This document shows positions 26,935 through 47,869 of a DNA stretch of 64,000 nt, piece after piece. Source of the stretch: Salinimicrobium xinjiangense DSM 19287 (GTDB lineage Bacteria; Bacteroidota; Bacteroidia; Flavobacteriales; Flavobacteriaceae); contig NZ_AUIG01000002.1 in NCBI RefSeq assembly GCF_000423585.1, positions 124,001 to 188,000 of the forward strand. The letters are read 5' to 3'. Each line of letters starts with the position of its first letter. Within the stretch, counting starts at the first letter, position 1. The notes beneath the pieces are model-generated. The model saw nothing but the letters and a program-made list of their open reading frames with translations, ran no database searches and was not told the DNA's origin. The translations under genes were made by a program, and so were the position numbers.

Positions 26935-27003
26935 AAATTCCAAGCACCAAATTCCAAATTCCAATCACTTTTCTGATCACTGATCACTGAACACTGATCA
27001 CTA
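26935..27003. repeat. Two dispersed repeat phrases after the HU/SPOR gene
   Basis: 26935-26957 is the exact reverse complement of 47842-47864 (23 bases, beginning AAATTCCAAGCACC). 26973-27003 carries CACTGATCACTGAACACT-type phrases, also seen at 32302-32333. Neither codes for anything visible. Confidence 0.75.
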
Positions 27004-27062
27004 AACTGCCTACTGTCAACTTTTTTTAATAACCTCTTAAGCTTTTTTACAGCTAAGCAGCT

Positions 27063-32171: not shown

Positions 32172-32332
32172 TTTGTTAGTATTGAGTATTTAGTAGTGAG
32201 TATTGAGATGCTCACCTATTTGTTTTTAGTTTGTGGTTTGTTGTTTATTCTCTCCCCCGGCGCCTCTCCGAAGGAAAGGGAAGATTTTCGCTTGTGAAAA
32301 ATACTGATCACTGCTCACCGAGCACTGAACAC
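32172..32332. repeat. Repeat-phrase gap between dut and the nucleotidyltransferase
   Basis: Contains TTAGTATTGAGTATT (32176-32190; also found at 47635), a C/G-rich block at 32251-32280, and CACTGAACACT-type phrases at 32302-32333 that run into the dut stop codon. No gene is seen. Confidence 0.7.
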
Positions 32333-32764
32333 TTAAACACCAGTGCTTCCAAAGCCACCTGCACCACGCGTGGTTTCTTCAAGAGTATCCACTTCTTTCC
32401 AGGTGATGTGTTCATGGCGGGAGATCACCATCTGGGCGATCCGTTCCCCATCCTGAATGGTGAATTCTTCATTTGATAAGTTGACCAAAATGACTCCTAC
32501 TTCACCCCTGTAATCGGCATCAACCGTGCCGGGAGAATTGAGGACCGTAATACCTTTCTTGGCAGCCAGTCCGCTTCGGGGTCTCACCTGTGCCTCGTAG
32601 CCTACCGGAAGTTCAATAAAAAGTCCGGTTTTAATAACGGCTCTTTCCAGAGGTTTCAAAGTGACGGGTTCGGAAATATTAGCCCGCAGGTCCATTCCGG
32701 CAGAAGCACCGGTCTCATAAGCCGGCAATTCATGCCGGGATTTGTTGATTATTTTTACGTTCAT
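32333..32764 (-). CDS. dut: dUTP diphosphatase
   Basis: Homotrimeric dUTPase that keeps uracil out of DNA and supplies dUMP. All five motifs are visible in order: [41 protein letters not shown] (catalytic Asp), GERIAQMV and the C-terminal arm [10 protein letters not shown]. Its 143 residues are typical. It sits between the flippase and the nucleotidyltransferase on the minus strand; the 161-base gap after it is filled by repeats, so cotranscription with what follows is uncertain. Confidence 0.97.
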
Positions 32765-35904: not shown

Positions 35905-36288
35905 AGTTATGAGTTTTGAGTTAGGAGTTAGGAGTTCTTAATAATAGACACCAATATTCTCATCAACTCTTCACACTTAGCAATTAAAACTTTACAATCA
36001 TTTTCTGATGTTGCTTCGATAAGCTCCAACCAGTATTTGGTTTCATCGGCTTCTTTTAAAGCAATACCAAATTTATTCTTGAAATCTTTTGTGCTTACTC
36101 CCCTTTGTGCTTCTCTAACATTCGCTCCAATGCTCGTTCCACTTTTTAACAGCTGGGAAGCCAGCTCATATTCATTTTGTTTTTTCAAAGACCGGGTGAA
36201 GAAAACTATGTCACAAGCAAACTGAAAACTTTTAATCCTGATTGGGCTTTCTTCCAGTTTGCTCATAACTCATAACTCTTAACTCAGC
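35905..36288 (-). mobile_element. Candidate IVS-like cassette inserted between atpA and atpG
   Basis: A block consisting of one four-helix-bundle gene bracketed by imperfect inverted repeats. The left repeat (35905-35934) is AGTTATGAGTTTTGAG followed by TTAGGAG twice. The right repeat (36262-36288), read on the minus strand, is TGAGTTAAGAGTTATGAG followed by TTATGAG. The stop codon of the gene (35928-35930) lies in the left repeat and its ATG (36264-36266) in the right repeat. Other flavobacteria known to me have atpA and atpG adjacent. Mobility is inferred, not shown. Confidence 0.45.
35928..36266 (-). CDS. Four-helix-bundle protein (23S rRNA intervening-sequence protein type)
   Basis: A 112-residue protein of the S23/IVP family (TIGR02436-like). 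Signatures are F-A-C-D-I-V-F-F-T-R-S-L, QLLKSGTSIGANVREAQRGVSTKDFKNKFGIALKEADETKYWLELI, and a terminal helix. Members are encoded in intervening sequences of 23S rRNA genes and elsewhere in Bacteroidetes; a related fold is the accessory protein Avd of diversity-generating retroelements. The function is unknown; binding of structured nucleic acid is the usual inference. It interrupts the ATP synthase operon on the same strand, so it is probably transcribed with it. Confidence 0.88.
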   Translation of the reverse strand: MSKLEESPIRIKSFQFACDIVFFTRSLKKQNEYELASQLLKSGTSIGANVREAQRGVSTKDFKNKFGIALKEADETKYWLELIEATSENDCKVLIAKCEELMRILVSIIKNS

Positions 36289-36298
36289 ACTTGAAAAA

Positions 36299-37879
36299 CT
36301 ATTTTTTATACTTAGCTGAAATCTCCTTAGCTACGTTTGTCAACGTATCTGTGATCTCGTCGTTGATCTTACCTGTCTTTAGTTGATCAAGTACATCTCT
36401 GTGCTTGGCATCAAGATACTCCAGGTAATCGTTTTCAAATTCTCTTACTTTCTCAACCGGAACATTTCTCAACAGGTTCTTGGAACCGGCATAGATGATC
36501 GCGATCTGCTTTTCAACAGGATAAGGATTGTTTTCTGCCTGTTTAAGGATCTCCACGTTACGCTTACCTTTTTCAATAATGTTAAGGGTCGCAGGATCAA
36601 GATCAGATCCGAATTTTGCGAAAGCTTCAAGTTCACGATATTGAGCCTGGTCAAGCTTCAGGGTACCGGCAACTTTCTTCATGGACTTGATCTGTGCAGC
36701 ACCACCAACACGTGATACAGAAATACCTACGTTAATTGCAGGACGAACCCCCGAGTTAAATAAATCTGAAGTTAAGAAGATCTGCCCATCTGTAATCGAG
36801 ATCACGTTTGTTGGAATATAAGCCGATACGTCACCTGCCTGAGTCTCAATAAGTGGAAGTGCAGTAAGCGATCCACCACCTTTTACCTTATCTTTTAAAA
36901 CATCCGGAAGGTCATTCATACTCGCCGCAATATCATCATCGTTAATGATCTTTGCAGCACGCTCAAGAAGTCTAGAGTGAAGGAAGAAAACGTCTCCAGG
37001 ATATGCCTCACGTCCCGGGGGACGTCTTAGAAGTAAGGAAACCTCACGGTAAGCAACGGCCTGTTTTGAAAGATCATCATAAACGATCAATGCAGGACGT
37101 CCTGTATCCCTGAAATATTCTCCGATCGCAGCACCTGCAAAGGGAGCATAAACCTGCATAGGAGCAGGGTCTGATGCGTTTGCAGCAACAATAGTAGTAT
37201 AGGCAAGAGCTCCCTTATCTTCAAGAGTCTTGGCAATACCGGCCACTGTAGAGGCTTTTTGCCCAATAGCTACATATATACAATACACAGGTTCCCCTGC
37301 ATCATAAAATTCTTTTTGATTAAGAATTGTGTCAATAACCACGGCAGTTTTACCTGTCTGGCGGTCACCGATCACAAGTTCTCTCTGTCCACGACCAATT
37401 GGCACCATAGCATCGATAGATTTGATCCCTGTTTGAAGAGGTTCGGTTACCGGCTGGCGATAAATAACACCCGGCGCCTTTCTTTCAAGTGGCATTTCGA
37501 AAGTCTCACCTTCTATAGGTCCTTTTCCGTCGATTGGAGCTCCTAATGTATCAACAACACGTCCAACAATCCCTTCTCCAACTTTTATAGAAGCAATTCT
37601 CTGAGTTCTTTTAACTGTAGCTCCTTCCTTCACCTGCTTATAAGGCCCTAAAAGTACCACCCCAACGTTATCTTCTAACAGGTTAAGAACGATCCCTTCC
37701 AGTCCACCTTCAAACTCCACCAACTCACCGTATTGTGCATTTGCCAGTCCGTATACGTTGGCGATACCATCCCCTACGTTAAGCACGGTTCCTACTTCGT
37801 CCAGAGAAGCCTTAGCCTCAAAACCGGAAAGCTGTTTTTTTAATATCGCTGATACTTCAGCCGGATTAATTTCTGCCAT
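36299..37879 (-). CDS. atpA: ATP synthase F1 alpha subunit
   Basis: The non-catalytic nucleotide-binding subunit of the F1 hexamer. The P-loop is [10 protein letters not shown] (near residue 172), and the alpha signature [14 protein letters not shown] is intact. At 526 residues the length is typical for Bacteroidetes. It follows atpH by 44 bases. Its catalytic partner atpD is not in the window, as expected in this phylum, where atpD and atpC lie elsewhere. Confidence 0.98.
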
Positions 37880-47600: not shown

Positions 47601-47869
47601 GCCCCCAACCCCCAAAAGGGGGAGTATTGAGAAGTTAGTATTGAGTATTGAGATCTTGGATCTTATAAAAAGGACAGGCTCCAAAAATGCCATTTTTGAA
47701 GTCTCTTATTTTAAGGTTTCTTGTTGACCTCCCTGTTAACTATTAACTTATAACTATTAACCAAATTGGAATTTGGCCCTCCTTCGCTCCTCTGCCTCAA
47801 AAATCTTATTGATGATCATTAAAGTTACGGAGGGTATATGCTTGGAATTTGGTGCTTGGAATTTATTTC
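47601..47869. repeat. Intergenic block made of several dispersed repeat phrases
   Basis: In order: a GCCCCC/CCCCCAAAAGGGGG hairpin (47601-47622; compare 13433), GAGTATTGAG phrases (47621-47652; compare 32176), the palindrome CAAAAATG-C-CATTTTTG (47682-47698; compare 12213), TTAACTATTAACTTATAACT phrases (about 47735-47760), an AAATTGGAATTTGG copy (47763-47776), and the 23-mer at 47842-47864 that is the exact reverse complement of 26935-26957. No gene is present. The gap lies between convergent genes. Confidence 0.75.

Follow-up and report, generated by a model that had tools for sequence, protein, structure and literature searches.

Inverted heptamer arms around IVP genes of Salinimicrobium and other bacteria: a proposed REPtron-like relative of the S23p intervening sequences

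Results

The locus between atpA and atpG

The window, as we call the whole stretch of 64,000 nucleotides that was analysed, comes from the 3.76-Mb genome of Salinimicrobium xinjiangense DSM 19287 (contig NZ_AUIG01000002.1, positions 124,001 to 188,000). On its minus strand, atpA and atpG, two genes whose names are our reading of the proteins and not an annotation, are separated by the following features.

36299..37879, minus strand: atpA, co-directional upstream neighbour (name read from sequence)
36262..36291, minus strand: upstream arm, reading on the coding strand as the degenerate heptamers GAGTTAA GAGTTAT GAGTTAT and containing the ATG
35928..36266, minus strand: IVP (S23p, four-helix-bundle) gene, 112 aa (open reading frame list; PF05635 and TIGR02436 profile matches)
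35905..35936, minus strand: downstream arm, inverted GAGTTAT-like heptamers, containing the TAA
35037..35897, minus strand: atpG, co-directional downstream neighbour (name read from sequence; matched in 31 of 31 genomes)

The IVP product scores 79.7 bits against PF05635 (curated cut-off 33.8), the only match in a Pfam scan, and 97.7 bits against TIGR02436 (cut-off 24), and a profile built from 20 IVPs finds the PDB relatives 2gsc and 2rld. Spacers of 32 nt and 30 nt separate the gene from atpA and atpG, respectively, and the arms, which are period-7 arrays of GAGTTAT-like words, occupy so much of these spacers that the exact ends of the cassette cannot be set. The arms are inverted and 84-87% complementary over 22-25 nt, and they enclose the S23p reading frame as arms do in 23S rRNA intervening sequences. 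Purifying selection acts on the gene (dN/dS 0.03-0.09 among five intact orthologs at the atp site; 0.02-0.09 is the range over all IVP genes tested). At the gathering score, Rfam has no match within the window. Viral contigs yielded two relatives of the window IVP, and phages gave no match for XCC0516 of Xanthomonas.

The arm score was obtained by aligning the upstream flank with the reverse complement of the downstream flank, for own and for swapped partners. At the window locus it is 19, compared with a mean of 10.1 (s.d. 2.2) for 350 control ORFs from a 400-kb stretch of the same genome, a set that includes two IVP genes; two of these controls scored at least 19, one being a GxxExxY gene. 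At lag 7 the two flanks match themselves at 0.71 and 0.79, where the controls average 0.43, and two of the 350 controls reach at least 0.6 on both sides. The coordinates (ATG at 36264-36266, TAA at 35928-35930) and the arm score above controls therefore confirm what the earlier note had described, a single IVP gene bounded by inverted repeats that hold its start and stop codons.

Arms of other IVP genes

The genome contains 12 PF05635 matches, and their flanks carry short tandem repeats, mostly inverted between the two sides, whose words differ: GAGTTAT (window), CTAGAGT, CAGTGGT, AAGTTTA, TTAGAAGT/ACGAAGT, AACCGAC, AGCAATT, TAATGTA and others. The mean score of own pairs is 19.2 and that of swapped pairs 9.4 (s.d. 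2.7), with the own partner unbeaten by any swapped partner in 10 of the 12 rows. Two-sided lag-7 matches of at least 0.6 occur at nine of the 12 genes; the exceptions (L002, L006, L010) have another or a mixed repeat period, or heptamers on one side. Because the words differ between loci, a mobile element with conserved terminal inverted repeats, as in an insertion sequence, was rejected. For the same reason, the earlier proposal that the particular repeats of the atp locus define the unit is not supported; other IVP copies do lack these letters, but most have arms of the same architecture built from another word.

This architecture extends to a set of 120 loci that combines the own genome with relatives (of 121 loci fetched, L108 was left out because it lies at a contig edge; 80 of the relatives' loci were chosen by hand among the matches listed). 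The own arm score is 17.4 and the swapped score 10.2. The mean best match on the two sides is 0.654/0.649 at lag 7, 0.586/0.605 at lag 14 and 0.516/0.515 at lag 21, with 0.40-0.47 at the remaining lags, whereas control genes have a lag-7 match of 0.43 and no periodicity peak. A lag-7 match of at least 0.6 is found on at least one side in 97 of these loci, on both in 64 and on neither in 23, which leaves 56 of 120 short of the two-sided value. A sample of 80 named loci, biased in that it takes the top hits in GTDB genomes for a single type of query (79 usable), gives an own score of 18.5 against 11.8 swapped, with peaks at lags 7, 14 and 21 and lag-7 arrays on at least one side in 67/79 and on both in 43/79. 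These named loci span Bacteroidota and records titled Ignavibacteriae and Melioribacteraceae; the fadJ-fadA records titled Limnohabitans and Rickettsiales are probably mis-binned. Many loci in these sets are orthologous, so that their counts are not independent. L100 (same-genus genome G008) and L291 (Salinimicrobium sediminilitoris) do not differ in the IVP gene or in the 60 nt that flank it on either side.

IVP genes also occur on plasmids, and in the 11 plasmid loci read from 27 plasmid records the own score is 22.1 against 10.4 swapped. Clear inverted heptamer arms flank the plasmid genes of Nostoc (3), Geminocystis, Calothrix brevissima and Azospirillum; those of Picosynechococcus and Gemmatirosa have period-8 or period-16 repeats on at least one side, that of Stanieria has weak arms, that of Pseudanabaena has heptamers running in the same direction on both sides, and in one of the 11, from Calothrix PCC 7716, arms are absent. 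On cyanobacterial plasmids, L330 lies between cas6 and cas4, and L332 between cas10 and a cmr3-family gene. This placement among cas genes may explain why the legend of a figure on domains linked to CRISPR names the 23S rRNA IVP (PMC10910872).

Up to 16 IVP copies per genome were found among the matches listed. Among 198 loci, fadJ-fadA is the junction in 47 (a biased sample), and sucB-lpd, sufA-sufB, ffh-folD and others recur. The earlier suggestion that the repeats supply translation signals is not supported as a general rule, since codons lie inside arrays in a minority of loci: of 133 loci with an upstream array, 12 have one that extends beyond the start codon, and of 147 with a downstream array, 27 have one that starts no later than the stop codon.

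Heptamer words and protein lineage

In the 198 distinct loci, pairs at different junctions were used to relate arm similarity to IVP protein identity. Similarity rises from 8.50 at 30-40% identity (5821 pairs) through 9.86 at 50-55% and 10.80 at 60-70% to 16.95 at 70% or more (83 pairs). The observed difference of 1.64 compares with a maximum of 0.53 in 2000 label shuffles, and in a family-level sample 2.46 was observed against a shuffled maximum of 0.66. Unclassified neighbours could hide orthologs, and the test was therefore repeated with all four neighbours classified and different, which gave 8.50, 9.14, 10.15, 11.26 and 18.43 (38 pairs) from 30-40% up to at least 70%. Judged from these alignments, related IVPs share words even at unrelated junctions, the 83 closest pairs at different junctions amounting to 11 protein groups and hence to few independent cases.

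A heptamer made of a fixed core and free positions was considered and rejected, the excess being modest in tidied units (chi-square 7.8 vs 5.4) and not clear in the untidied set. The tidied units vary mostly by transversion (ts/tv 0.55, compared with 1.26 at fourfold sites of atpG), which is not what ordinary decay of copies would give. The downstream arms of four members of the CTAGAGT group (L001, L103, L104, L113) are alike over some 40 nt save for one dinucleotide, which, judged by eye, differs in all four genomes.

Presence, absence and exchange of cassettes at junctions

Six of 12 same-genus genomes carry the IVP gene between atpA and atpG (G000, G002, G003, G007, G010, G011), as does one genome of another genus (G017), a total of seven among 28 readable junctions from 30 loci fetched; the copies of G010 and G017 are broken. 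In G005, G006 and G008 a gene-free hairpin of the heptamer GTATTGA takes the place of the IVP gene. There is no clear breakpoint at the arms, and the divergence of the IVP gene resembles that of atpA. A cassette-specific exchange at this site was suggested by dS but rejected, because in a wider alignment the atpA end behaves alike.

At fadJ-fadA, all 11 same-genus genomes with a readable ortholog have an IVP gene; the twelfth congener, G001, was left out (74% complete, distant match only). These genes form, by eye, four groups with the words CTAGAGT, GTATAAT, GAGATTT and GTATTGA, both copies of the GAGATTT group having an internal stop codon. The groups are 38-67% identical, whereas fadA is 79-98% identical to the query. 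On the host tree from fadA and atpG, the four groups need at least six changes (minimum 3, shuffled mean 6.2), and still six if the two closest groups are merged; moreover, the well-supported sister pairs G006/G008 and G003/G010 hold different groups. Instead of insertion, this swapping could reflect allelic exchange, with homologous recombination in the conserved genes on either side. At fadA-fadE, 4/11 genomes have an IVP gene, and the other seven have, by eye, a short inverted-heptamer stretch.

The earlier note's picture of a self-contained cassette with inverted bounding repeats, on the same strand within an essential operon, is supported, and its proposal of a mobile unit agrees with an atp junction that carries the gene in six and lacks it in six of the 12 same-genus genomes and with the swapping of cassettes at the second junction.

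Gene-free heptamer arrays

The window also contains heptamer arrays that are not associated with an IVP gene.

26965..27004, plus strand: CACTGAT-like gene-free array; nearest own-genome IVP arms, L003
32175..32208, plus strand: gene-free array, word GTATTGA
32302..32337, plus strand: CACTGAN-like gene-free array, nearest arms L003; overlaps the stop codon of the ORF at 32333-32764 (minus strand)
47622..47653, plus strand: gene-free array, word GTATTGA

In 864 kb of the own genome, noncoding sequence holds 40 lag-7 arrays. At lag 8 there are 12; lags 6 and 13 have a single array each, and lags 5, 9, 10, 11 and 12 have none. For the 37 lag-7 arrays that are not beside an IVP gene, comparison with the arms of the 12 resident IVP genes gives a score of 22.5, and comparison with those of 12 random distant IVPs gives 15.0 (14.4-15.8, ten draws). 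Some GTATTGA arrays have no matching resident IVP and, by eye, resemble the arms of congeners. Within 60 nt of a gene end, 22 gene-free arrays have the orientation of an upstream arm and two the opposite; near gene starts the numbers are five and four, and nine arrays are near neither (an array near two genes was counted twice). One of the 37 lies between divergent genes, and a separate survey found none in 56 divergent spacers.

The IVP family is common in bacteria, PF05635 having a match in 116 of 148 sampled Bacteroidota genomes. In coordinate-picked stretches of 15 IVP-free Bacteroidota genomes (772,016 nt, 102,611 noncoding) no lag-7 array was found, whereas those of 15 IVP-rich genomes (800,000 nt, 102,493 noncoding) contain 18, spread over 10 genomes (Fisher p = 0.0002); the two sets overlap only partly in family, and 10 of the 15 IVP-rich genomes were sampled on contigs known to carry IVPs. 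Five of the 15 IVP-rich genomes have no array in their sampled stretches. Sixteen of the 18 lie more than 700 nt from any IVP hit. Several look plainly AT-rich, and without the three genomes that rest on such arrays the comparison is 7/15 against 0/15 (p = 0.006).

Discussion

The earlier note saw a real thing but took the cassette for a single unit with fixed repeats. The IVP cassettes are better described as a family whose members have cognate heptamer arms, specific to the lineage, and derivatives that lack the gene. With a probability of about 0.6, we consider these cassettes to be a two-part selfish system, similar to a REPtron and consisting of the IVP and its cognate heptamers, which is related to the S23p rRNA intervening sequences. 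Its first part would be the IVP gene, kept intact under purifying selection where this was tested, and its second part a degenerate heptamer family specific to the IVP lineage, in the form of inverted arms at the gene and of gene-free arrays and hairpins elsewhere, most of these arrays standing at gene ends, where they share one orientation. An IVP oligomer would bind its own heptamer word in DNA and might recruit host enzymes of replication or repair, by which arms and cassettes would be extended, copied and inserted at the ends of genes. The evidence for this reading comes from sequence comparison and comprises the inverted period-7 arms, the link between word and lineage, repeated replacement of cassettes, the resemblance of arrays to arms and the absence of arrays from the sampled IVP-free stretches. 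A reverse transcriptase or a Y1 transposase acting as partner in trans was considered and rejected, neither being matched in G013 (6 IVPs among the matches listed) or G019 (5), genomes whose cassettes could be relics.

According to one alternative, the cassette is an intervening sequence at the RNA level: pairing between the arms in the operon mRNA would let RNase III excise the cassette, which is why the cell tolerates it, and the same pairing would keep the arms alike. The Coxiella element has a comparable anatomy (an S23p reading frame, 28-bp terminal inverted repeats, excision by RNase III and tandem heptamers before the start, as described in PMC4990558), in 37 of 40 loci the IVP gene points the same way as the genes on both sides, and predicted RNA folds contain at least 10 expected arm pairs in 142 of 196 loci, compared with 60 of 196 when arms are swapped. 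However, in loci with an arm score of at least 15, arm transitions that preserve G.U pairing in the mRNA are outnumbered by the mirror kind, in which G.U is kept solely in the RNA of the opposite strand (188 vs 261, p = 0.0007), a ratio that strand-biased mutation could also shape. Furthermore, gene-free arrays with no visible partner are common, and pairing alone leaves unexplained both the specificity of words to lineages and the lack of arrays in the sampled IVP-free genomes. The G.U deficit and the common single arrays favour a process at the DNA level, and we regard excision from RNA as an unlikely account of the cassettes.

It could also be that the arrays came first, the host making them by slippage and IVP genes merely landing in them. 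Gene-free arrays and hairpins do stand at the same junctions in relatives without the IVP gene, and heptamer arrays have been described in several groups with the IVP unmentioned in the texts available (PMC4679880, PMC4692102). Nevertheless, the contrast between no arrays in the stretches of 15 IVP-free genomes and 18 in those of 15 IVP-rich genomes argues against this order of events, as does the word that follows the IVP lineage at unrelated sites, and plain slippage would not predict that the other lags from 5 to 13 are rarer than lag 7; we rate this origin as quite improbable. That the IVP gene is a resident host gene, such as an operon regulator, with immobile regulatory repeats at its sides agrees with its strong purifying selection and with its presence at the atp site in two genera. 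Such a gene would hardly be present and absent at one junction among congeners, be replaced at another by members of four divergent groups, recur at many unrelated junctions and on plasmids, and be broken in some species, and we therefore give this possibility very little weight.

The preferred reading, a selfish pair of IVP and cognate heptamers, invites a broader proposal that we put forward tentatively and think somewhat less probable than its negation: that IVP/S23p proteins are sequence-specific makers of heptamer repeats and the common source of scattered arrays in Bacteroidota and cyanobacteria and probably in Xanthomonas, Beggiatoaceae and the Coxiella IVS, that they act with no known nuclease, polymerase or transposase of their own, and that the IVP ring is the ruler that sets the number seven. 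A solved IVP relative is reported to be a ring of five four-helix bundles, and the same paper describes IVP/S23p as having no known function (PMC4990558, as far as its accessible text goes). In titles and the opening parts of abstracts, within a coverage that leaves out most subscription journals, the link between IVP and heptamers is unreported, the Coxiella rRNA element aside; the precedents for the heptamers, in Coxiella, Xanthomonas and Beggiatoaceae, are fragmentary.

Bacterial heptamer arrays have so far been described piecemeal and without a maker, and the IVP link gives both the arrays and the protein a testable explanation. If it is correct, a selfish system would have as its basis a protein in which no enzyme domain is known, with a repeat word that evolves with the protein. 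It might explain why IVP genes lie inside unrelated operons, CRISPR loci included, without belonging to them. Such a system would be an overlooked kind of genomic parasite and may account for several puzzling seven-letter repeats of bacteria.

Other genes with flanking repeats

Two further gene families were compared with the IVP genes. GIY-YIG genes were rejected as the same kind of element, because their flanks are direct and not inverted (direct 16.4, inverted 9.0; of 13 loci, eight were scored and five left out for their length). In G000, several small GIY-YIG genes, L052-L055 among them, have such direct repeats at their sides, that of L055 copying the start of the neighbouring gene, and perhaps represent another homing-like element. 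Both GxxExxY genes (PF13366; L064 and L065, G000:C13:105507 and C1:219515) have strongly inverted flanks, with a score of 21. Their words resemble CGCAGATT and ATTACGCGG, and a period of 7 is absent; they are possibly a second gene family of the same life style. A region of about 14 kb (G000:C1:206000-220000) contains two GIY-YIG genes, two IVP genes and one GxxExxY gene. The top inverted-flank score of the 400-kb stretch (28, 150-nt flanks) belongs to a Y1 transposase-like gene (G000:C1:305403-305876), a candidate REPtron.

Comparison with known systems

The published heptamers TAACTGA (Beggiatoaceae, Cyanobacteria, Bacteroidetes), GGGAATC (Xanthomonas) and GGGGA(C/T)T (Nostoc) are, like those described here, degenerate, tandem and intergenic (PMC4679880, PMC4692102). 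The same two papers report 70 and 75 cases of paired convergent repeats in Xanthomonas and further heptamers in intergenic regions of Gramella forsetii and a relative. Their main texts contain neither "S23" nor "intervening sequence", and the IVP link proposed here rests on other records, the 79 named and the 11 plasmid loci.

PF05635 is described as resembling Avd of the diversity-generating retroelements and is the most common family in the DGR data of the paper concerned (PMC10053308, in the part available). Avd works with a reverse transcriptase, whereas several IVP-rich genomes here have no PF00078 match, e.g., G002 (16 IVPs among the matches listed) and G008 and G017 (11 each); the own genome has two PF00078 matches, on contigs with no IVP match.

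In the REPtron or RAYT (TnpA-REP) system, according to the accessible text of PMC6006769, the gene is flanked by copies of the repeat, often as inverted pairs, the repeat is dispersed gene-free between genes, and each protein has its own repeat family; likewise, the repeats that flank IVP genes are dispersed gene-free and their type follows the protein lineage. Unlike the RAYT protein, the IVP is a four-helix bundle that lacks the Y1 HUH transposase domain, and in G005 (11 IVPs among the matches listed), as in G013 and G019, Y1_Tnp has no match. Moreover, REP and REPIN repeats are palindromes with a tetranucleotide foot, whereas the IVP repeats are degenerate heptamer arrays.

With the 23S rRNA intervening sequences of Leptospira and Coxiella, the cassettes share the protein family and a reading frame enclosed by complementary arms, and the Coxiella element has two or three tandem heptamers GACAGAT before its start codon (PMC4990558, in the portion available). 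In contrast, the cassettes described here reside in protein-coding operons, in many copies, with lineage-specific words and gene-free derivatives, and the window locus, between atpA and atpG, lies outside any rRNA gene. The Coxiella element is excised by RNase III, whereas here arm pairing is a prediction of folding and the G.U test speaks against selection for pairing in RNA. The element therefore resembles a REPtron in its working and an S23p intervening sequence in its anatomy, and departs from each in one defining feature; with no Y1 domain and a place outside rRNA, it is rated a member of neither and a variant of the S23p-element kind.
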